A DNA stretch of 32,381 nucleotides from positions 1-32,381 of the forward strand of contig JAJECK010000071.1 of the NCBI GenBank assembly GCA_022822085.1, in the 5' to 3' direction. The notes beneath the pieces are model-generated. The model saw only the letters and a program-made list of their open reading frames with translations, did no database searches and was not told the DNA's origin. Source of the DNA: Candidatus Poribacteria bacterium (GTDB taxonomy: Bacteria; Poribacteria; WGA-4E; WGA-3G). The position numbers and the translations under genes are program-made. Shown here piece by piece: positions 1-22,658 of the stretch. Every line of letters begins with the position of its first letter. The first letter of the stretch is position 1.

Positions 1-3000
1 TAGATACTGATGCTTCAGGATATACCACTGAGAATAGTGATGATGCCTCAGCGGTTTCGCCATTCGCATCTGTCACCATCACGGAAATCAGGTGATCCCC
101 TTCAGACAACTTATCAGAAAGGTCAGCACTGAACTGATTACCTTCTATCGTCGCTTCTACAGCCTCACCATCTAACATCAGACTCACAACAACTTCACCA
201 ACACCACTAAACTCACCAGCAATGTGGCGGAAGGTGTGATCTGTAGTTGAACCCGCTGGAGGTGATTGGATAGATACTGACGCTTCAGGATACACAACTG
301 AGAATGATGATGATGCCTCAGCAGTTTCACCATTCGCATCCGTTACCATCACGGAAACCACGTGATCCCCTTCAGACAACCTATCAGATAGATCAGCACT
401 GAACTGATTACCTTCTATTGTCGCTTCTACAGCCTCACCATCTAACATCAGACTCACAGCAACTTCACCAACACCGGTGAACTCACCTGAGATATGACTG
501 AAAGTGTGATCATAGGTGTCGCCAGCTTCAGGTGATTGGATGGATACTGACGCTTCAGGATATACCACTGAGAACAGTGATGATGCCTCAGCAGTTTCAC
601 CATTCGCATCTGTCACCATCACGGAAACCAGGTGATCCCCTTCTGATAACTTATCAGAAAGGTCAGCACTGAACTGATTACCTTCTATTGTCGCTTCTAC
701 AGCTTCACCATCTAACATCAGACTCACAGCAACTTCACCAACACCGGTGAACTCACCAGCAATGTGACTGAAAGTGTGATCTGTAGTTGAACCCGCTGGA
801 GGTGATTGGATAGATACTGACGCTTCAGGATATACGACTGTGAATGATACTGATGCTTCAGCAGTTTCACCATTCGCATCTGTCACCATCACGGAGACCA
901 TGTGATCCCCTTCAGACAACCTATCAGATAGATCAGCACTGAACTGATTACCTTCTATTGTCGCTTCTACAGCTTCACCATCCAACATCAGACTCACAGC
1001 AACTTCACCAACACCGGTGAACTCACCTGAGATATGACTGAAAGTGTGATCATAAGTGTCGCCTGCTTCGGGTGACTGGATGGATACTGACGCTTCAGGA
1101 TATACGACTGTGAATGATACTGATGCTTCAGCAGTTTCACCATTCGCATCTGTCACCATTACAGAAACCACGTGATCCCCTTCTGATAACTTATCGGAAA
1201 GGTCAGTACTAAATTGATTACCTTCTATCGTCGCTTCTACAGCCTCACCATCTAACATCAGACTCACAGCAACTTCACCAACACCGGTAAACTCACCGGA
1301 GATGTGACTGAAAGTGTGATCATAGATGTCGCCAGCTCCAGGTGATTGGATAGATACTGACGCTTCTGGATAAACCACTGAGAATGTTGTTGATGCTTCA
1401 GCAGTTTCACCATTCGCATCTGTTACCATCACGGATACTGTATGTTCGCCTTCACTCAACTTATCAGCAAGTGTGTGTGTAAATTGGTTACCGTCTACCA
1501 TAGCATCAACAGCTTCACCATCTAACATCAGACTAACGGAGACATCACCAACTCCACTAAACTCACCAGAGATATTGCGATAGGTGTGATCCAGAGTTTC
1601 ACTGGCAAGAGGAGAAGTGATGGACACTGACGCATCAGGATAAACAACTGAGAATGTTGTTGATGTCTGTGCGGTGTTACCATTTGCATCTACTATTGAA
1701 ACTGAAACTGTATGTTCACCTTCACTTAACTTATCAGCGAGAGTATGTGTGAATTGGTTACCATCTATAACCGCCTCAACTGCAGTGTCATCTATCATCA
1801 GAGTTACAGCGATTTCACCAGCACCGGTGAACTCACCAGAGATATGACGATAGGTGTGATCATAAGTGTCGCCTGCAACGGGAGAAGCGATAGAAACAGT
1901 TGGAACAGGTAATCTGATTGTAAATACATGAGTTGCTGTAGCCGTCTTACCGTGAGCATCCATAACAACAGCGACTAATGTGTATTCGCCGTCATCTAAT
2001 GGAGCAGCAGGTGTGAATTCAAATGTATTTTCACCTTCGGTGGCTGAAACAACTTCACCATTTAAAGTTAGACTTAATGATACTGGTTCAGCATCACCTG
2101 AGAATGAACCATCAATTATAGGCATGCTGATATCATACATTTCAACCGCATGAATAACAACCATCGGGCCTGGTGTATCCACAGTAAAGGTCAACGCGGT
2201 TTGTGCTGTTACGCCACTACCGTCTGTAACTTCAACTTCCACTTTATGATCACCTTGAGCCAATGCTTCTGGAGGCATATATGTGAAGTCGTTGCCATCA
2301 ACATTTGCGGCGAGTTCCACACCATTGATAGTAAAGTTAGTTATTGTAACCTCACCACCGCCTGAGAAGAACCCAGTGATTTCTGCTGGACTATTGTCAA
2401 GTGACTGTCCAGAAGCGGGTGCGGTAATAACGACGATCGGGTCTTCACCTTCAACAGCAAAATTAACAGATGCTTCACCAATATTTCCGAGCATATCTGC
2501 AACTTGGACTGTGAACTGATATGCACCACCAGCGAGTTTGTCTATTCGAGTATAGACGACAGAGATTAAATTCTGCTCAACCATACTCTGATCAACATCA
2601 ATCGGCACGGCATCCTGAACAACTTCTTCCGGGCGGAGCCTCGCTAATGAAACGACAGCAGTGTCTTCGGCACTGACACCACTACCATCACTTATACCAC
2701 TGCCCAAATCACCATCACCGAAACCAGCAAGAAGTGTTGGCAAGTCATCGACTGAATGCCCTTCTGCGGGTGTTTCAATAACGATCATTGGACCGGTGTT
2801 GTCTAAGTTTATCGTTGCTAATGGGAAATCTACAAAACGTTCACGTATAGTTACCCGTCCGTGCGGTGTATACCATCCATCTGCTACTTCTGAAAGGTTG
2901 TTTGCCATGAGGGAGAAGGAATTTGCAGCATCACCACTACCTGCAGCGTAATCATCTCCATCTCTGGGCTGTCCTCCAACAACAACACCTGTAAGGTCTT

Positions 3001-6000
3001 CAACTGCTAATGAACCGTTATTAACATTGAAACTCACAGCGATTGATTCTTTGAGAGGGAACCTGCCTTGAAGTTCTCCAACAGTTTCTTGGAGTGGAAG
3101 CCTGTCTGGTGATTCACCATCAACTGCCGTTACAGTAAGATCAGTAATATCACTTACACGGAAGTTAAGGACATGAACGGTGATTACTGGAGAAGGTTTA
3201 TCAAGTTCACCTTGCACTTGCCAATTACCGAACTCGTCAGCGACAAGAGCATAGTACATGTAAGCCCCATTTTCGAGTAATCCTATATCAACGGTGAGTT
3301 GCCCTTCATCAACACTGGCAGATGGAAGTTCAGTAACTGCTCCATCAGGACCTGTTTGAACCAGTCTGATCATGCCACCTTCATAAGTGATAAGTTCGGC
3401 AGTCGGTTCAATAGAGAAAGTCAGTTTTGTTGACTCGACATTATCATCAACGATTCCGCGAGCAGTGTAGCTGCCATCTTCATTTGCTACCAGCGAACCA
3501 ACATGATCAGCAACATCAGTGATGTTTGTCGGACCGAGTGGTGGCACATCATCAACATTGTCTAATGAGAAGGATGCTTCTACACCGCCTCGTTCCAGAT
3601 ATTCATCGCGTTTTGGATATTCAACTTGATTCAGATTATCTGGTGTGAGTGCATACGCACGCACCGTATATTGGTTTGTGTCTGCGGTTACGTCGCGCTC
3701 AGAATCACCATCTCCCCTATTAATTGTATCATCAAGTTTGATGGCCTCATCATCTGCGTTTAACCTCGCCAAATCTCGGCTATCGATGGTAAACGTCCAT
3801 CTCATAAGGCTCGCGGGACTTCCGCCTTCTGCCTCAGAAATGTTAACAAGAGCACTGATAACACCTGAATTCGTAATTCCAGCAGAATTACGAATAATAT
3901 CTGGCAAATCTTTTACGTCTACTTCAGACACATTCACAAGTTCAGATGGCTCAGCAGTTCCAGTGATCCGTTCCCACGTACCATCAATAGGACGTTGCAC
4001 TTCAACACGAATCCCTTTAGTTGGGGCTGAAGTAATTCCATAAGTGTAGACATCAAAAGTGAGTTCACCTTGTGGTGCACCACTATCAGGATTTACCATA
4101 CCATCCGAATTTACAATGCTGATTGCTAACACACCCGGATCGGGTCTGTAGGAGTTCTCAACATGCACTGTGATTTTCTTTTCAACAGTGTCAATTATTG
4201 CGCCACTATCAACATCCCGGTCATGGGTTTGCGGATTCATCGCCTCGTCATAGGCAATAGCGTAAAGCTGGAACGAAAAGCGTTTTCCTTTTGGATTATA
4301 GATATTTTTGTCCGGATTTTCAATATATGCATCTTCCACATAAGTGTCATTGTGGACAAAATCATCATCATCCATAAGTGTGCCAACATCAATGGAGACA
4401 GTAATTGCACCGTTGCCTTCTGCAGTAATGACACCAGTTTCCTCATCAGGAACAAGGAGTGTGCCAGCGGAGTTTCTGATAATAGTGCCTTTAGGGAAAA
4501 TCGGATCAGGCATCAATTTGACTCCGGCAAAAGTTGCACTTGCGGCACCTGGCGTTATAGTAAACGTAACCACAGGAGAATTGACTTCTGGGTCATATTT
4601 ATCAACAAGACCGCCAACTGTGTAACTACCATCTGCGTTTGGCGTGACAGCCCCTGAGTCTCCTACTACACCAGTGATTACTGTCGGACCGAGTGGACCA
4701 ACATCGTTTTCGTTGTCTACTGAGAACATATCGGTATAGTCAGGACCTTCAACGGCATCTGAAATATCGCTTTCATCTTCGCCGACAGCATAAGCGCGCA
4801 CCATATAACGATTGTCATCTAACTCAGCATAGGATTTTCCATCTGGGTCAGAGGCTGCATGTGCAGCGGCAAGATTTTCGCTTGTGATAGTATCATCTAA
4901 TAGCGTTGTATCTACTGTGATCACCCATTTAAGGTAACTACCAGAATCCTGAATATGTAACATGTCATCAACATACACATCTGCTAAGGCTTTATCATTG
5001 AACATGATTGCCGCGGTGTCTGTCCCTGACATACCAGCAGGATCAACGAGTTCAACTGTCCCGATATCTTTCCAAGCATCATCGTTCATCCGCTTTGCTT
5101 TAACACGAATGGTGTCTGTTGCAGGAACAGTTCTGCGAGGTGTATATCCGATAAGTTGGATCGTCCCTTGCGGTGCCCCACTATCAGGATTGGTCATTAC
5201 GATAGATGAATCATCAACATCAACGACTAGGACCTTCGGATCAACTGGATGAACGTCATTGTCAAGCATTATTGTGAAATATTCTGCTTCAGGTGTTGTC
5301 GTTGTGAGGTCGAGCGCGTTTGATGTAATTGTGCGCAGTCTCACGACTTCACCAGCACCAATTAGATCATCAAAATCTGTTACAGTCCAAGGATGCTTGA
5401 ATGTCGTTCCCACCGGATGACCTGCTTCTACTAAATCAATAGGATCACCGATGGTAACCCAATCACCATCTGCATTCTCGTACTGAACCGTGATTGTGCC
5501 GGGGTGTGCTATGTCGTGATTCTCTGCCCCAGATCGTTGGTCAACCGAAATGGTTAGGGTTAGATCTTGTGCATTGGCATAGATTACGTTATTTTCATAG
5601 TCATCATCTTTACCATTATAGTTGATGTCCCCTAAACTTGCCAATGTGATGCTTGACCTATCATATTCAGGTTTAACGATTCTCAGACGGGTCGCCCCAA
5701 CATGAGAACTAATATTTAACAGGTTATCAATCCCCAATGCACGTATACCGTATTCACCTTCAGGGAACACCATTCTCATGACGCGATCTTCATTGTAGGT
5801 AAGTGGAATTGCATCAATGTCATCAACCAGAGCACCGAGTAGATCAACAATAAACTTCGCTCTTGCATCATTTATCGGTCGTATACCGAGTTTAGCAAGT
5901 TCTGGGTTTCCTATTTCTTGTATCAATCCAGGTGTTATTAGACCCAAAACTGCGTTAAATGGTAAACTCCAAAGTGAATCAACCAGTGACCGGTACTGCT

Positions 6001-8419
6001 CAGGAATGTTAGCCAAAAGAGGACTGCCTTGCAATTGCTCTTTGGCGATATCCCAGAGATCTGAAGCTAACATAGATGATTCTACCGTCAAAGGCAGCCA
6101 AGTTGTAATAGAATTTCCATCTTTATCAAGACCTGAGACCTGATAAAGCAGATAACCATCATCCCGGCCCAGAATGCCTTTTGTAAGTACACTACCAATG
6201 TCTAACAGCGCAGCTGGTCCGTCGTTCTTGTCTGTGCTAACAAAGATACTATCCTTATTCAAGTAACCAGAGGTATCAACGTCTGCATTAGCAATAGGTG
6301 TGAACGTTATATCTGCTTCAGGTGCAGAGGAATCACCGATAAAATCAACTACAATATGATCTACGTCATCACCATCCGCGTTACGCACAACAGCTTCAAC
6401 TGTGTAATCCCCATCAGCAATTGCGTCAAAATTAGCAAACCAGAGTGATTCTGTATCATAGTCAATATCTGGCACAGTGAAAACCGACGCCAGTTTCGGA
6501 TCAAAATAACCATCATTATTTTCAAATTCTGTTAGTAAACCGTTTGCGTTTCGTCCTAACAACTGTGTTAGTCTATTAAACTCGCTAAACGGAATTTGGT
6601 TTCCTCCTTGAGAAAGAAGGTATATTCTGGCAATTTCTAATGCGACATCTGGTGTTAAGAGTGCATCAATAATTCCCCGATCTTGGAACTGAAGGTTACG
6701 CGGGTCAGGCATTGACCAACTTGCAATCGTGTATTCCTTCGTTGCTGCTTCGTCATGAGTTCCGTGAGGAGAGGCTATTGCTTCACCGAGTGCTACAGGA
6801 TTGACAATATTAAGCTTTACAGGTTCCATCAATGTAACTTCAAAATAGTAGAAGACATTGCGTCCTGGAATAATACCGACATCTCCCTTCCAAACGACAC
6901 CCTTATCTTCATCATAAGGATCCATGTGAAGTGCAATATATTCTCCATCTAAACCTTCTTGTGAATACCGAAGTACCACTTCTCTGAAAATTTTAGGAAA
7001 ATCAGGAGCATCCGCGGGCCATGCTGGTAGGTTAGTTGCGGCAAGTGTTTCCTCAAGTTTGAAGGTATAAGGAATTGTATCTGCTTTGAATGCTGTTGGT
7101 GAAATACGTTTACCTTGCACTGATGGAGTACCGCTGAGTCTAAATTGGACGCTACCGTTCTCAAGTGCATTTGGAACGCGAACATACACGTTCATGTTAT
7201 TGCTAGCCAGATACTTATTCTCCGGAATCACATTGGTATAAAGTAAGTCTGTTAGCGCGGGTGAAATAGCGTTTCCGAAGTTTTCACTGTCTAACTGCGG
7301 TGGCTCATTCTGAAAAACAGATAAAGGTTGTTGTGCTGTCAAGGCATATCTAATCTGAGACTTAGGCAAAAACCCTTCTGGGATCTGATTCAACACAAAA
7401 TCAACAGCTTCAGCAATGAGAGCATCAGAAGCTCTTGGATCAAATCCAGATTCAGCGAGTAATTTATCAATAAACCCTCGTGCATAAATTTTGTTTAGAG
7501 AGACACCACCAAGCCGGGACTGACCATTCAGGTTTGAAGGGATAAGATTAACCGGTCGGTCTGGCTGATCCGGGGGTGTTGGATCCACTGGTGGAGTTGT
7601 TGGTTTCTCCACTGTAGCAAATGTAACCACAAAGGTTGCAGGGGATGAATCCGCTGTACCATCGTTGGCTACCAACGTTAATGTGACAGTTGCACCAGGA
7701 ATGGTAGGCATTGCCTCGGTGGGAGCAGTCTGCGTAACCTGGACACTGCTGCCGGTGATAGTCCTGCTGTAATAACTCGCTGCCTCAACTGGTTCCACAG
7801 AAAAAGAATCTATTCTCACGGTAACCGTGTCTTCTGCGTTAACATCTGCAGTCCTAAAAGCAATATTAAATGAACCCTGTTGCGCTGTTGGCGGGGGCCG
7901 GGTTGTAATAGATATCGTCGGCGGTGCTGGATCAGGCTTTGTTTCCTCACCAGGATCAATTGCCTCAGACTCATTGATCAACCTCAATAACTCATCAAGT
8001 CCTGCAACAAGGTCGGTCCCAGAAAGGCTTAATAAAGTTTTAGTATTGTCAGCAGCGAGGACCGCTTGAACATCTGCGTCGGCAATAATGGCGATATGAT
8101 CATCTGTTAACGTTAGACCTGCACCTTGTGCAATTGCCTTTAAGCTTGCACCTGTAGGATCCGTTTTTAATGAATTGACTGCGAAATCAATTACACCTGC
8201 TGGTGACAACCCAAGGGGTAATTCACCCTTTAAACCCTCAATAACCTCTGGCAGGTATTGCTTAACGTTTGCACGTCTAAGTACCAGATTGTGTTCATCA
8301 AACACCTGTTGGGCAAGTTCTTCGGGAGTTGCGTCCTGCCCAAACACAGTGTCTGTAATTGAAAAGTGAAAAACACACAATGTAAAAATCAAAAAACAAA
8401 CAAGTGTTCGTTTTTTCAT
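1..8419 (-). CDS. Giant secreted Ig-like repeat protein (3' end outside window)
   Basis: One open frame of 2,806 codons runs from ATG 8419 off the window edge with no stop, so the C-terminus is missing. A strong Shine-Dalgarno (GAGGAGGAAGAG) precedes the ATG. Residues 1-28 form a signal peptide (KKR, hydrophobic core, then VFGQ), so the product is exported. In order: an alpha-rich N-terminal region (~30-160), an Ig/cadherin-like domain (~164-270), a Pro/Asp linker (~274-292), a long region of mixed beta modules, and a ~370-residue module present twice. Each module copy carries NPDSGAPQG (near 1080 and 1445) and DNxxDVxPLGP (near 1230 and 1617). From ~2000 onward Ig-like domains repeat, the last seven at exactly 90 residues. 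The acidic composition (D/E/N/G/T) suits calcium-stabilised surface adhesins. Function is inferred as cell surface or extracellular adhesion. No catalytic motif or sorting signal is visible, although the latter would lie in the missing end. Confidence 0.9.
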   Translation of the reverse strand, partial: MKKRTLVCFLIFTLCVFHFSITDTVFGQDATPEELAQQVFDEHNLVLRRANVKQYLPEVIEGLKGELPLGLSPAGVIDFAVNSLKTDPTGASLKAIAQGAGLTLTDDHIAIIADADVQAVLAADNTKTLLSLSGTDLVAGLDELLRLINESEAIDPGEETKPDPAPPTISITTRPPPTAQQGSFNIAFRTADVNAEDTVTVRIDSFSVEPVEAASYYSRTITGSSVQVTQTAPTEAMPTIPGATVTLTLVANDGTADSSPATFVVTFATVEKPTTPPVDPTPPDQPDRPVNLIPSNLNGQSRLGGVSLNKIYARGFIDKLLAESGFDPRASDALIAEAVDFVLNQIPEGFLPKSQIRYALTAQQPLSVFQNEPPQLDSENFGNAISPALTDLLYTNVIPENKYLASNNMNVYVRVPNALENGSVQFRLSGTPSVQGKRISPTAFKADTIPYTFKLEETLAATNLPAWPADAPDFPKIFREVVLRYSQEGLDGEYIALHMDPYDEDKGVVWKGDVGIIPGRNVFYYFEVTLMEPVKLNIVNPVALGEAIASPHGTHDEAATKEYTIASWSMPDPRNLQFQDRGIIDALLTPDVALEIARIYLLSQGGNQIPFSEFNRLTQLLGRNANGLLTEFENNDGYFDPKLASVFTVPDIDYDTESLWFANFDAIADGDYTVEAVVRNADGDDVDHIVVDFIGDSSAPEADITFTPIANADVDTSGYLNKDSIFVSTDKNDGPAALLDIGSVLTKGILGRDDGYLLYQVSGLDKDGNSITTWLPLTVESSMLASDLWDIAKEQLQGSPLLANIPEQYRSLVDSLWSLPFNAVLGLITPGLIQEIGNPELAKLGIRPINDARAKFIVDLLGALVDDIDAIPLTYNEDRVMRMVFPEGEYGIRALGIDNLLNISSHVGATRLRIVKPEYDRSSITLASLGDINYNGKDDDYENNVIYANAQDLTLTISVDQRSGAENHDIAHPGTITVQYENADGDWVTIGDPIDLVEAGHPVGTTFKHPWTVTDFDDLIGAGEVVRLRTITSNALDLTTTTPEAEYFTIMLDNDVHPVDPKVLVVDVDDSSIVMTNPDSGAPQGTIQLIGYTPRRTVPATDTIRVKAKRMNDDAWKDIGTVELVDPAGMSGTDTAAIMFNDKALADVYVDDMLHIQDSGSYLKWVITVDTTLLDDTITSENLAAAHAASDPDGKSYAELDDNRYMVRAYAVGEDESDISDAVEGPDYTDMFSVDNENDVGPLGPTVITGVVGDSGAVTPNADGSYTVGGLVDKYDPEVNSPVVTFTITPGAASATFAGVKLMPDPIFPKGTIIRNSAGTLLVPDEETGVITAEGNGAITVSIDVGTLMDDDDFVHNDTYVEDAYIENPDKNIYNPKGKRFSFQLYAIAYDEAMNPQTHDRDVDSGAIIDTVEKKITVHVENSYRPDPGVLAISIVNSDGMVNPDSGAPQGELTFDVYTYGITSAPTKGIRVEVQRPIDGTWERITGTAEPSELVNVSEVDVKDLPDIIRNSAGITNSGVISALVNISEAEGGSPASLMRWTFTIDSRDLARLNADDEAIKLDDTINRGDGDSERDVTADTNQYTVRAYALTPDNLNQVEYPKRDEYLERGGVEASFSLDNVDDVPPLGPTNITDVADHVGSLVANEDGSYTARGIVDDNVESTKLTFSIEPTAELITYEGGMIRLVQTGPDGAVTELPSASVDEGQLTVDIGLLENGAYMYYALVADEFGNWQVQGELDKPSPVITVHVLNFRVSDITDLTVTAVDGESPDRLPLQETVGELQGRFPLKESIAVSFNVNNGSLAVEDLTGVVVGGQPRDGDDYAAGSGDAANSFSLMANNLSEVADGWYTPHGRVTIRERFVDFPLATINLDNTGPMIVIETPAEGHSVDDLPTLLAGFGDGDLGSGISDGSGVSAEDTAVVSLARLRPEEVVQDAVPIDVDQSMVEQNLISVVYTRIDKLAGGAYQFTVQVADMLGNIGEASVNFAVEGEDPIVVITAPASGQSLDNSPAEITGFFSGGGEVTITNFTINGVELAANVDGNDFTYMPPEALAQGDHKVEVEVTDGSGVTAQTALTFTVDTPGPMVVIHAVEMYDISMPIIDGSFSGDAEPVSLSLTLNGEVVSATEGENTFEFTPAAPLDDGEYTLVAVVMDAHGKTATATHVFTIRLPVPTVSIASPVAGDTYDHTYRHISGEFTGAGEIAVTLMIDDTAVEAVIDGNQFTHTLADKLSEGEHTVSVSIVDANGNTAQTSTTFSVVYPDASVSITSPLASETLDHTYRNISGEFSGVGDVSVSLMLDGEAVDAMVDGNQFTHTLADKLSEGEHTVSVMVTDANGETAEASTTFSVVYPEASVSIQSPGAGDIYDHTFSHISGEFTGVGEVAVSLMLDGEAVEATIEGNQFSTDLSDKLSEGDHVVSVMVTDANGETAEASVSFTVVYPEASVSIQSPEAGDTYDHTFSHISGEFTGVGEVAVSLMLDGEAVEATIEGNQFSADLSDRLSEGDHMVSVMVTDANGETAEASVSFTVVYPEASVSIQSPPAGSTTDHTFSHIAGEFTGVGEVAVSLMLDGEAVEATIEGNQFSADLSDKLSEGDHLVSVMVTDANGETAEASSLFSVVYPEASVSIQSPEAGDTYDHTFSHISGEFTGVGEVAVSLMLDGEAVEATIEGNQFSADLSDRLSEGDHVVSVMVTDANGETAEASSSFSVVYPEASVSIQSPPAGSTTDHTFRHIAGEFSGVGEVVVSLMLDGEAVEATIEGNQFSADLSDKLSEGDHLISVMVTDANGETAEASSLFSVVYPEASVS
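5..1894 (-). repeat. Seven tandem 270-bp coding repeats (90-residue Ig-like units)
   Basis: Units run 1894-1625, 1624-1355, 1354-1085, 1084-815, 814-545, 544-275 and 274-5, all exactly 270 bp and in frame. Each begins SI.SP and ends FSVVYPEASV or similar. The last five are nearly identical, while the first two are more diverged. Units 4 and 6 share EAGDTYDHTF and units 5 and 7 share PPAGSTTDHTF, so the newest part is a 540-bp two-unit repeat. More diverged copies lie upstream at about 1895-2440. The array continues to the window edge and may extend beyond it. Confidence 0.95.
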
Positions 8420-9060
8420 TAACTCTTCCTCCTCGTTAAGTCTACGCGAACACGAGACTAAATACTGAAGTTTTAGATGGGCAAGCAGAAAACACAATAA
8501 AACGACCGGAGGTAGGTGTCTGCCCATCCAAAATAAACATCCTACTACCAAGCATTTAAATTCTTTCCTTTAGTACGTAATTCAAATAGTTACGTAATTC
8601 AACCCGCGGATAGTGTCAATGTATCCGGACTGTAAGGTCAAAAGCGAGCAAAATTGGGCACCGAAGTTTTGTATTTGACCAACGGGCATCTTTACAGAAG
8701 GTTCACATAACAGATTCAAGTGATTACGTAACATAATGTATTTAACTTAAGATTTGATCATAATATAAGAACGTCTGTAATTTTAACAAAAGTGACTAAA
8801 TTAAGCAAGCATTTTAATCGGCATGTGGCGTTTAATGATAAAAATTCGGTAAATTTCCCCGCCTATCTGTATTTTACGATTAAATTGCAATCGGTATTTA
8901 ATATAATACTATAATTAACAAATTATGTCAAATGAAAATTCTGAATTTTTATCAAAATATTTTCAAACATAGACAAATAAAAATTAATCTAATTGACATA
9001 GTAACAAATTTCATATAAATTGTCAAATAAATTAAATATTCTGGTGAAAATACTTTAATT
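8420..9060. other. AT-rich divergent intergenic region
   Basis: This 641-bp gap separates the giant surface-protein gene (minus) from the dioxygenase gene (plus). No coding frame is convincing. It becomes extremely AT-rich from about 8750 to 9060. Near the surface-protein side a 12-bp direct repeat TACGTAATTCAA occurs at 8574-8585 and 8591-8602, and the palindrome TTACGTAA recurs at 8724-8731. These could be regulator sites, but no regulator is identified. No good sigma-70 promoter is obvious for the minus-strand gene. Confidence 0.6.
8993..9021 (+). promoter_or_regulatory. Candidate promoter of the PhyH-family gene
   Basis: A perfect -35 box TTGACA (8993-8998) is followed after 17 bp by TAAATT (9016-9021); TATAAA at 9014-9019 is an alternative with 15-bp spacing. 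This would leave a leader of about 30-35 nt before ATG 9061. The surroundings are so AT-rich that a chance match is possible. Confidence 0.45.
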
Positions 9061-9965: not shown

Positions 9966-10244
9966 AAATTAACTCGAGTTGCTACCTATAAGTTTTTAGA
10001 CCTGAAAACACCGTCTTTAATCAAAAATACTGATAATTAGCCAATATTTGTAGCGTGAACTCCCAGTTGGCACTCGGACGACACAAACTGAATGAAGTTT
10101 AAGTAAATATTTAGGTAATTTGGCGAGGTTAGGAAACCTCGCCAGCGGAGGAGCGAAACTTGCCTCGTACGGATAAAAAATTACCGAATTAATAAATTAA
10201 TCTTCATGAAGTTTGTGGTACAAGGTAGCAACTTGAGTTAAATT
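9966..10244. repeat. 279-bp segment bounded by 22-bp inverted repeats
   Basis: The arm at 9966-9987 (core AACTCGAGTTGCTACCT) and the arm at 10223-10244 (core AGGTAGCAACTTGAGTT) are inverted copies matching at about 20 of 22 positions. The right arm covers the cytochrome stop codon (10243-10245). The MITE-like copy at 10083-10217 lies inside, so this looks like an older element interrupted by a younger one. No coding potential is seen inside. Confidence 0.55.
10083..10217. repeat. MITE-like element, copy A
   Basis: Imperfect terminal inverted repeats of roughly 40 bp (10083-10123 and 10176-10217) flank a core. Their inner part reads TGAAG...GGTAATT on one side and AATTACC...CTTCA on the other. 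The core holds a 9-bp-stem hairpin with an AGGA loop at 10122-10143 (GGCGAGGTT/AACCTCGCC), then a GC-rich stretch AGCGGAGGAGCGAAAC and CCTCGTACGG. The same core and ends recur at 21681-21958 between ribosomal protein genes. It has no open reading frame, so any movement would need a transposase acting in trans. Confidence 0.75.
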
Positions 10245-16233: not shown

Positions 16234-16977
16234 TTACAGTGCTTTCAAGCGGGCAATTTCCTCTTGGAGTCGTGTAACTTCGGCTTCCGCTTCCTGTCTT
16301 GCCTCAATTTCTTGTTGAACACGTTTTTCTACTTGATGAACACGTTCCTCAGCTTGTTCGGCACGTTCTGTCGATGCCTCAGCAGATGTTTGCAGCCACT
16401 GTTTCGCAACCGGATCGAAAAGACCAAACCCATCATACAGTAAATGAAAATTCAGGTTCAGGACATCTGAGTGTATTCCGCCATCAACCGTTGAAGACAC
16501 TTGCAAATAAGTATCCTCGACAAGTCTAAATCCCATTAATGGCTCCGGTAAATAGCATCTATCAACATCATAGAGGAAATATTCAGGGATTCCCATGGAG
16601 GCATAGTGCGACATTTTCCCATCTAAGTCATCTTGATAGGTGCGTTCGATTGGGAACTCCATGACAAAGTCTGGTGCTTTCCCTTCTTCCCATACCTTAT
16701 ATGTCCGACGCTCCCCTTTCTCAATACCGAAAGCGACGAGAATATCGGGAGACGCTGCGGTTCGGAGAGGGCCTTCAATATCGTACATCATGATATTCCC
16801 AGAGAGATAGACATCGTCTCTTTGCTTAAAACGCCACTCAAGCACCTGACGCGTCCAAAATATCCACTTAAAGTGGATATCTGAATCAGCTATGGGTTTA
16901 CCATCCGATTCGGGATAGAGGTCTTCAGTTTCTGTCGGTGCGTAAGGTATTTTCTGTCCGTTTGGGTAGGTTTCCAT
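16234..16977 (-). CDS. Uma2-family (DUF820) nuclease-like protein with coiled-coil tail, copy 1
   Basis: This 247-residue protein has a PD-(D/E)XK-type fold at ~25-185. Candidate active-site residues are D78 (SPDILVAF), E107 (PDFVMEF) and K121 within DLDGKMSHYASMGIPEYFLYD, a stretch diagnostic of the Uma2/DUF820 family. The tail (~200-247) is a Glu/Ala/Arg/Gln-rich coiled coil. Uma2 proteins are common in cyanobacteria and some other phyla; their biological role is not established. ATG 16977 follows AGGAGG with five-base spacing. It is a tandem paralogue of the next gene upstream (roughly 80-85% identical by eye in the core) and ends 4 bp before hemE. Confidence 0.87.
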   Translation of the reverse strand: METYPNGQKIPYAPTETEDLYPESDGKPIADSDIHFKWIFWTRQVLEWRFKQRDDVYLSGNIMMYDIEGPLRTAASPDILVAFGIEKGERRTYKVWEEGKAPDFVMEFPIERTYQDDLDGKMSHYASMGIPEYFLYDVDRCYLPEPLMGFRLVEDTYLQVSSTVDGGIHSDVLNLNFHLLYDGFGLFDPVAKQWLQTSAEASTERAEQAEERVHQVEKRVQQEIEARQEAEAEVTRLQEEIARLKAL

Positions 16978-17023: not shown

Positions 17024-17815
17024 CTATTGAACTAGTGCTTTCAAGCGGGCATTTTCCTCTCGGAGTCGTGCGGCTTCGGCTTCCGCTTGTTGGACACGGT
17101 CCTCAGCTTGTTCGGCACGGGCTGTCGCTGCCTCTCTTGCCTCAACTTCTTGTTGGGCACGGTCCTCAGCTTGTTGTCTTGCCTCAACTTCTTGTTGAAC
17201 ACGTTCGGTCGCTGCCTCAGCAGATGTTTGCAGCCATCGCTTCACAACCGGATCGAAAAGACCAAACCCATCATCAAGTAAATGAAAATTCAGGTTCAAT
17301 ACCTCTGAATGTAATCCTTCATCAACCGTTGAAGACACTGGCATATAAGTATCCTCAACAAGTCGAAATCCCATTAATGGAACCGGTAAATAGCGTCTAT
17401 CAACATCATAGAGGAAATATTCAGGAATTCCCATTGCGGCATAGTGCGACACTTTCCTATCTAAGTCATTTTGATAGGTGCGTTTGCTTGAGAACTCCAT
17501 CACAAAGTCTGGTGCTTTACCTTCTTCCCATACCTTATATGTCCGACGCTCCTTTTTCCCGATACCGAAAGCGACGAGAATATCGGGAGACACTGCGGTT
17601 CGGAGAGGCCCTTCAATATCGTACATCATGATATTCCCAGAGATATAGACATCGGGGTTTTGCTCAAAACGCCACTCAAGCACCTGACGCGTCCAAAGTA
17701 TCCACTTAATGTGGAGATCTGTATCAGCCATTGGTTTACCATCCGATTCGGGATAGAGGTCTGCAGTTTCTGTCGGTGCGTAAGGTATTTTCTGCACGTT
17801 TGGATAGGTTTCCAT
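17024..17815 (-). CDS. Uma2-family (DUF820) nuclease-like protein with coiled-coil tail, copy 2
   Basis: This 263-residue paralogue of the downstream gene has the same MET.PN.QKIPYAPTET start, the same candidate active-site D, E and K (PDILVAF, PDFVMEF, DLDRKVSHYAAMGIPEYF) and a longer coiled-coil tail (~200-263) built from QQEVEAR and AEDR-type heptads. The 16 extra residues all lie in that tail. Its leader with Shine-Dalgarno AAGGAGACGCAG is nearly the same as that of copy 1, so the duplication covered the 5' region too. Whether either copy is catalytically active cannot be judged from sequence. Confidence 0.87.
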   Translation of the reverse strand: METYPNVQKIPYAPTETADLYPESDGKPMADTDLHIKWILWTRQVLEWRFEQNPDVYISGNIMMYDIEGPLRTAVSPDILVAFGIGKKERRTYKVWEEGKAPDFVMEFSSKRTYQNDLDRKVSHYAAMGIPEYFLYDVDRRYLPVPLMGFRLVEDTYMPVSSTVDEGLHSEVLNLNFHLLDDGFGLFDPVVKRWLQTSAEAATERVQQEVEARQQAEDRAQQEVEAREAATARAEQAEDRVQQAEAEAARLREENARLKALVQ

Positions 17816-21419: not shown

Positions 21420-21460
21420 AGGTTAACTCCTTTCACATCATGACTACTCTGTCCGCAAAT

Positions 21461-21484
21461 AAAAAACCCCCAGGGTCCTGGAGG
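21461..21484 (-). terminator. Attenuator hairpin in the rplJ leader
   Basis: On the minus strand a 7-bp GC-rich stem (21484-21478 with 21473-21467, one G-U pair) with a four-base loop is followed directly by TTTTTTATTT. It lies about 40 bp before the rplJ ATG and after the L10-leader structure. This placement suits transcription attenuation of rplJL. Confidence 0.72.
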
Positions 21485-21600
21485 CTTGACCTAACTACGG
21501 TAGTCAAAACATGTTTCGTTACATTTCACACGAAACACTCTTTGACCATATCCGAGTCTCGGTAGGTAATTAAGCCAAAGCCCCTACTTTCTTAAACTCT
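21485..21600 (-). promoter_or_regulatory. Ribosomal protein L10 leader (autoregulatory RNA)
   Basis: The minus-strand RNA upstream of rplJ contains GTAGG...GGCTTAATTACCTACCGAG, a pattern typical of L10 leaders. Two nested stems follow: GTCAAA pairs with TTTGAC, enclosing TGTTTCGT (21537-21530) paired with ACGAAACA (21519-21512). The CCGAGACTCGG hairpin and the downstream ACTACCGTAG are also visible. In known L10 leaders the L10-L12 complex binds here and represses its own synthesis. A covariance-model search would confirm the assignment. Confidence 0.7.
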
Positions 21601-21680
21601 ATTTGTAGGACAGAGATGTCAACTGATTCTTTATATTTCCATTAAAAATCTATAATGTCATGTATTAAAATTTGTATATA

Positions 21681-21958
21681 TGAAGATTAAGAAAATAAAT
21701 CGGTCCTTTGGCGAGGTTAGGAAACCTCGCCAGCGGAGGAGCGAAACCTGCCTCGTACGGATAAAAAGACCGAATTAAAAAATTAATCTTCATTAGGCAT
21801 TCCCCGCCTCGCCAGCGGAGGAGCGAAACCTGCCTCGTACGGATAAAAAAGACCGAATTAATAAATTAATCTTCATTAGGCATTCCCCGCCTCGCCAGCG
21901 GAGGAGCGAAACCTGCCTCGTACGGATAAAAAAGACCGAATTAATAAATTAATCTTCA
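21681..21958. repeat. MITE-like element, copy B, with two extra tandem right-hand units
   Basis: A full copy spans 21681-21792. Its inverted ends are TGAAGATTAAG...CGGTC and GACCGAATT...AATCTTCA, and it has the same AGGA-loop hairpin (21710-21731) and GC-rich core as the copy at 10083-10217. Two more right-hand parts follow as an exact 83-bp tandem repeat (21793-21875 and 21876-21958), each with GCCTCGCCAGCGGAGGAGCG and ending in AATCTTCA. The last unit ends one base before the rplA stop codon. It sits inside the ribosomal operon between rplA and the L10 leader. Confidence 0.85.
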
Positions 21959-21959
21959 T

Positions 21960-22658
21960 TCATACAAATTCTTGGGGATCAATTCGGATACCAGCACCCA
22001 TTGTCGCCGAAATCGCAACACTCCTAAGGTATCTGCCAGATGTTCCAGAGGGACGTGCTTTCACAAGTGCATCCATTACTGTCGTAAGGTTATCCTTAAT
22101 TTGATTTTCTTCAAACGAGACTTTCCCGATTGGGACATGAACCACACCGGATGTGCGCTCAACGCGATATTCAATTTGTCCAGCTTTGATATTCCCAAGT
22201 GTTTCTGCAACATCCATTGTAACAGTGCCTGCCTTGGGGTTGGGCATTAACCCGCGCGGTCCAAGGACTCTCCCTAACTTCGGCATGATACTCCGCATCA
22301 GGTCAGGCGTAGCAATAGTCGCATCAAATTCGAGCCAACCATCAACAATTTTATCAACTAATTCATCAGTTCCAACAAAATCTGCACCTGCTTCCTCAGC
22401 TTCACGTGCCTTGTCTCCCTCTGCGAACACAACAACCCGAATAGATTTACCTGTCCCGTGCGGCAGTGAAACTGTCCCACGAATATTCTGCTCAGCAATC
22501 GCTGGATTTATGCCGAGACGGGATGCTAAATCAATAGTTTCATCAAACTTCGCTGAGCCTGTCTGCTTAACAAGTGATACTGCTTCGTCTACAGTGTATA
22601 AATTTTCTCTTTCAACATGCTGTTGAATATCACGATAGCGTTTTCCTCTTTTCGCCAT
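21960..22658 (-). CDS. rplA: Ribosomal protein uL1
   Basis: This 232-residue L1 protein forms the L1 stalk of the 50S subunit and in many bacteria represses its own operon. Family landmarks are the N-terminal MAKRGKRYRDI, DETIDLASRLGINP, the central VVVFAEGDKAREAEEAGADFVG, LGRVLGPRGLMPNPKAGTVT, and GTSGRYLRS near the end. ATG 22658 is chosen because GGAG lies seven bases upstream and it gives the standard MAKR start; an in-frame TTG at 22670 would add four residues. It lies 27 bp after rplK. The stop codon nearly touches the repeat array downstream. Confidence 0.97.
   Translation of the reverse strand: MAKRGKRYRDIQQHVERENLYTVDEAVSLVKQTGSAKFDETIDLASRLGINPAIAEQNIRGTVSLPHGTGKSIRVVVFAEGDKAREAEEAGADFVGTDELVDKIVDGWLEFDATIATPDLMRSIMPKLGRVLGPRGLMPNPKAGTVTMDVAETLGNIKAGQIEYRVERTSGVVHVPIGKVSFEENQIKDNLTTVMDALVKARPSGTSGRYLRSVAISATMGAGIRIDPQEFV

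Follow-up and report, generated by a model that had tools for sequence, protein, structure and literature searches.

Transposases of the IS630/mariner superfamily are the textbook case of TA targeting. IS630/Tc1-mariner elements and their MITEs, such as the Correia elements and RUP, resemble the Candidatus Poribacteria elements described here in several respects: a DDE transposase recognised by the same IS630 equivalog model, a single ORF, short inverted ends, and high-copy derivatives that consist of the ends only (examples in PMC2817692). Whereas ISY100 and IS630 target TA (PMC2170065), the poribacterial IS and MITE lack a TA duplication, occupy the centres of palindromes and duplicate 1 nt. 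The REP-targeting ISs (IS1397, ISKpn1, IS621, ISRm22 and ISPpu9) also have REP palindromes as their targets, which ISRm22 enters at the axis of palindromy (PMC1525189). They belong to the IS3, IS110 or IS4 families, unlike the poribacterial parent, which is of the IS630 type, a family not mentioned in the survey of REP-targeting ISs (PMC1525189). They differ further in that the arm sequences of the poribacterial targets vary widely and that the MITEs re-enter REPs carried by other MITEs. With the REP/RAYT systems and BIMEs the present system shares arrays of hairpins (module B) with a GTAG foot around a RAYT gene, and inverted pairs of hairpins (CAAACT) with GTAG/CTAC feet; in contrast, the IS630 MITE described here carries REPs in its interior and also has them as targets. 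In the QMITE2/IS1111 pair of Coxiella, an IS likewise enters a REP carried by a MITE, but the IS is a different one, and the portions of that paper cited here describe no recursive nesting (PMC10969869). A search of the open-access literature, with subscription papers outside its scope, retrieved neither a paper on Poribacteria MITEs nor an IS630 element with hairpin targets.

Anatomy of the insertion at rplA

The window, i.e. the whole stretch of 32,381 nucleotides that was analysed, is a contig of a Candidatus Poribacteria (sponge-symbiont) genome. An earlier note on this DNA had located a MITE-like element between rplA and the rplJ leader, and rightly so: the insertion adjoins the rplA stop codon, upstream of the L10 leader. 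The proposed length of 112 bp with inverted ends holds without the outermost A/T; in full, the element measures 114 bp (21680-21793), with ends ATGAAGATTAA (21680-21690) and TTAATCTTCAT (21783-21793). It is followed by two 83-bp units (21794-21876 and 21877-21959), which are exact copies of each other, as claimed, with zero differences. They are not plain right halves, however, as the unit also contains the right arm, TTAGGCATTCCCCG, of module C, a third hairpin. The first right half, within the 114-bp element, differs from them by 2 edits. No nucleotide separates the second unit from the rplA stop codon (21960-21962, minus strand). The features are the following:

21451-21611, minus strand: divergent L10 leader with a terminator-like hairpin (21487-21464), downstream of the insertion in the direction of rplJ transcription
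21669-21677, unstranded: left arm of the outer target palindrome, AATTTGTAT, pairing with 21962-21970 after exactly 2+2 nt (AT/TC)
21680-21793, plus strand: complete MITE of 114 bp (module A), a REP hairpin flanked by IS630-type ends; the ends are identical to those of the autonomous IS at L282:852-2091
21710-21731, unstranded: module B, the REP-like hairpin GGCGAGGTTAGGAAACCTCGCC in the interior of the MITE; the same hairpin makes up the array around the RAYT gene (L251)
21793-21806, plus strand: right arm of module C (TTAGGCATTCCCCG), left arm missing; the junction recurs in L004-L007 and in L002, the balanced nest
21794-21876, plus strand: 83-bp unit 1, formed by the C, B and A right arms
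21877-21959, plus strand: 83-bp unit 2, identical to unit 1
21962-21970, unstranded: right arm of the outer palindrome (ATACAAATT), also the last rplA codons; the rplA stop codon (21960-21962) is intact
10092-10207, plus strand: second copy of the MITE, enclosed by a CACAAACT..AGTTTGTG hairpin within a larger 271-bp inverted-repeat element

The second copy had been placed at 10083-10217; the copy is present, but that range takes in the outer CACAAACT/AGTTTGTG arms. The larger inverted-repeat element that encloses it (window 9966-10242) has the ends TTAACTCGAGTTGCTACC and GGTAGCAACTTGAGTTAA. Similar larger elements occur in the sampled genome as 8 copies of 244-307 bp, seven of which enclose an exact MITE end and one a diverged copy. 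Comparison of the window MITE with its parent IS reveals that ~30 bp of each IS end are kept around the REP-like hairpin. Two MITE copies of the same genome (L108:18527 and L109:7464) harbor an interior REP of a different type (GTAGGTGCGGTTTCCTAACCGCACC), and the cargo hairpin is thus exchangeable.

Copy number and autonomous parent

That the element is mobile, as the earlier note held, is borne out by its many copies and by an autonomous IS with the same ends. Its relatives number well over 100 (>150) in its own genome. The core 23-mer, with up to 3 mismatches, matches the genome 88 times as compared to 0 in the reversed control, and the 11-bp end ATGAAGATTAA occurs exactly 316 times as compared to 5 in the control, so these copies are not due to chance. 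The own-genome sample comprised ~1 Mb of stretches out of 5.6 Mb, plus the listed copies, and the sequences used throughout come mostly from MAGs. A search of relatives found similar sequence in 40 of 60 genomes, where weak matches may cover the shared hairpin only; all the genome matches listed for the 22-bp core hairpin are from the phylum Poribacteria. The element exhibits the features of a MITE: it is short, non-coding, present in many copies, and its inverted ends are common to an autonomous IS. An Rfam search of the element returned no family, and a COG3860 match of 18 bits, below the threshold of 42.5, was taken as chance.

The autonomous parent, a 1,240-bp IS (L282:852-2091, contig C14) with one ORF for the transposase (L282:922-2073), has ends identical to those of the MITE (ATGAAGATTAA/TTAATCTTCAT). 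The ORF matches Pfam DDE_3 (PF13358, 73.6 bits, cut-off 28.6) and the NCBIfam equivalog transpos_IS630 (NF033545, 181.7 bits, cut-off 100). It carries QDE, QDN and NPIE contexts, which we take to be the D-D-E residues typical of the IS630 superfamily. The DDE transposase and the terminal inverted repeats around a single ORF are those of an IS630 element, but the TA target and TA duplication are lacking: the flanks follow the pattern XY[..]YZ, with many different dinucleotides. The combination of an IS630 transposase with the lack of a TA rule sets the parent apart from standard members, as an IS630-type element whose target is atypical. Other genera of the order contain homologous ISs that have these same ends.

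Insertion at palindrome centres

The position of the insertions, at the centre of palindromes, had been missed in the earlier note. In the window's own genome, a perfect outer stem of 5 bp or more follows after exactly 2+2 nt in 55 of 100 copies (62 of 97 in an earlier set with another deduplication), and such stems accompany 32 of 76 copies in other Poribacteria genomes; unequal offsets yield stems in 0 to 3 copies. Seven of the nine autonomous copies with both ends also lie in a palindrome centre. About 45% of copies are without a perfect outer stem; the non-matching (hybrid) outer flanks of some copies suggest recombinants between copies.

Unfilled CAAACT hairpins possess a 3-nt loop in 48 of 53 cases (AAA, AAC, GAA, GAC, GGA and others). 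The filled sites of this family (AA/AA, AA/AC, GA/AA, GA/AC and GG/GA, the slash standing for the element) match these loops with the middle nucleotide doubled. A 3-nt loop XYZ becomes XY[element]YZ, the inner nucleotide being identical in 45/55 stem-flanked copies of the own genome and 28/32 of the other genomes. Target duplication, which the earlier note had proposed to check, is thereby reduced to 1 nt, the doubled middle nucleotide of the loop, and no TA duplication was found at the insertion flanks. Orthologous unfilled sites were sought at 8 loci in 5 relatives, with one clear hairpin-only site: where one copy of the own genome is inserted, relative G005 has the hairpin but no element. 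At the remaining loci, hairpin and element are both lost or there is no synteny. The rplA site obeys the rule (AATTTGTAT-AT[element]TC-ATACAAATT) and would have been, before insertion, a palindrome with the loop ATC; this palindrome is absent in relative G010.

REP hairpins with a GTAG foot account for many of the targets. CAAACT hairpins dominate, with 30 of the 55 filled sites of the own genome, and as members of one hairpin family these sites are not independent. This dominance would suit an IS that reads particular REP sequences, by dyad-symmetric binding to the sequence and not by recognition of hairpin structure, non-REP targets being degraded REPs; IS1397, IS621 and ISRm22 do target particular REP sequences (PMC1525189). 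The diversity of the targets makes this a rather unlikely explanation: at least 18 different stem cores in the own genome and 16 in the others, unrelated in sequence and base composition, have in common only a palindrome and a short loop. We are evenly divided on the more general proposal that an IS630/mariner-superfamily DDE transposase that has lost TA specificity might instead recognise small-loop hairpins largely regardless of arm sequence and insert at the loop centre with a 1-nt duplication, so building recursively nested palindromes together with REP/RAYT. The hairpins would then be extruded cruciforms or single-stranded lagging-strand DNA.

Nested arms and tandem units

With A for the IS630 MITE, B for the REP hairpin and C for the GAATGCC..GGCATTC hairpin, contig C103 (L002) holds a complete, balanced two-level nest, A(B[C{A(B[ ]B)A}C]B)A. 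In the same notation, the window array is A(B[ ]B)A }C]B)A }C]B)A; here and in L003, the right side is as in L002 and the left arms are missing. Judged by their sequence, the "tandem half-copies" of the earlier note are the right arms of an element-C hairpin-REP-element nest, a relationship that it had overlooked.

The exact 83-bp unit was probably duplicated locally. Such a duplication is favored over independent insertion because the two units are identical, and the repeated one-ended insertion proposed previously is not supported. The order of modules is also that of a three-level nest without two of its left arms, which would require three independent levels of nested insertion and no tandem duplication. 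This is improbable in view of the two identical units and of a third only 2 edits away, since right halves elsewhere are a median of 11 edits apart and identical in only 3 of 5671 other pairs. To note, the number of 83-bp units may be mis-assembled, the genome being a MAG. The simplest order of decay in the window starts from a two-level element-in-C-in-REP-in-element nest: a deletion between the direct repeats of the left arm would have removed left arms, and local duplication of one right-arm unit would have followed.

REP hairpins and the RAYT gene

Modules B and CAAACT both behave as REPs: they have a GTAG-type foot, are dispersed, and occur in a genome with a RAYT. A clear GTAG foot is, however, lacking in the B copy that the MITE of the window contains. 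CAAACT hairpins form inverted pairs with GTAG/CTAC feet, as in the G005 pair GTAGCGTAAACT..AGTTTGTGCTAC. The whole element is not a REPIN, which would have two inverted REPs as ends; its ends are IS630-type. One of the three Y1 transposases of the genome (L251:1038-2070, contig C138) is a RAYT according to NCBIfam REP_Tyr_transpos (112.5, cut-off 80). Its gene lies inside an array of B hairpins with GTAG (GTAGG) feet; one A-type end follows, and IS630 ends may here have captured a REP/RAYT module. In some relatives, too, REP-like hairpins flank the RAYT genes and are of the B type or another. As REPs are found inside the MITE and the MITE enters REPs, the two mobile systems interlock. The array with its A-type end could be taken to mean that the RAYT moves the whole element as a REP or REPIN, with the IS630 ends as passengers. 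This is very improbable, as the element is bounded by IS630 ends and not by REP feet, and autonomous IS630 copies follow the same target rule without RAYT.

The rplA-rplJ region

The insertion leaves rplA intact, as well as the divergent L10 leader and its terminator-like hairpin. The leader scores 32 bits (E 0.0022) against Rfam RF00557, below the gathering score of 44; the spacer that contains it looks conserved in relatives, and the Rfam model at its cut-off misses the Poribacteria version. No terminator-like site was found within the insertion on the rplA strand. The rplJL genes may be served by read-through, which would then be harmless, or by a promoter of their own. The rplA-rplJ spacer is devoid of the element in all 28 relatives in which it is readable, including G010, whose rplA is 92% identical. 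Near rplA in L233 and L235, two 1-mismatch matches to the end motif were found, each single and with no partner end. A conserved regulatory RNA of this region, the reading that the earlier note would have adopted had the sequence been conserved at this site in distant species, is refuted by this absence and by the dispersed copies elsewhere, even though RNA of the insertion folds strongly (-117 kcal/mol, z -5.5).

Elsewhere in the window, a giant ORF (2-8551, minus strand) contains, at 1-1894, ~seven tandem repeats of 270 bp (90 aa), likely to be repeated surface domains. Two adjacent paralogous ORFs (16234-16977 and 17024-17815, minus strand) presumably encode Uma2-type proteins with repeated coiled-coil C-termini.

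Proposed mechanism and significance

The sequences directly display the MITE and its parent, the central position, the nesting and the absence in relatives. The explanation that we favor, and consider highly probable as a whole, starts from a MITE composed of IS630-family IS ends around a REP hairpin. An IS630-type transposase acting in trans would mobilise it into the exact centre of a palindrome with a ~3-nt loop, duplicating the middle nucleotide of the loop, and the hairpin structure would be the signal that the transposase recognises. REP hairpins would be its main targets, alongside other palindromes, for example the one at the rplA stop codon. New copies would insert into old ones and nest, since the MITE contains a REP hairpin that can itself carry C, and in the window the loss of left arms and the duplication of one unit would complete the series.

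An IS630 lineage that appears to read DNA secondary structure would offer a natural model of hairpin recognition by a DDE enzyme, and an insertion tool guided by structure could be derived from it. At the locus analysed here, the insertion sits between ribosomal protein genes, with rplA and the L10 leader untouched. The proposed mechanism would account for the way in which the nested palindromes of Poribacteria are assembled from REPs, MITEs and ISs.
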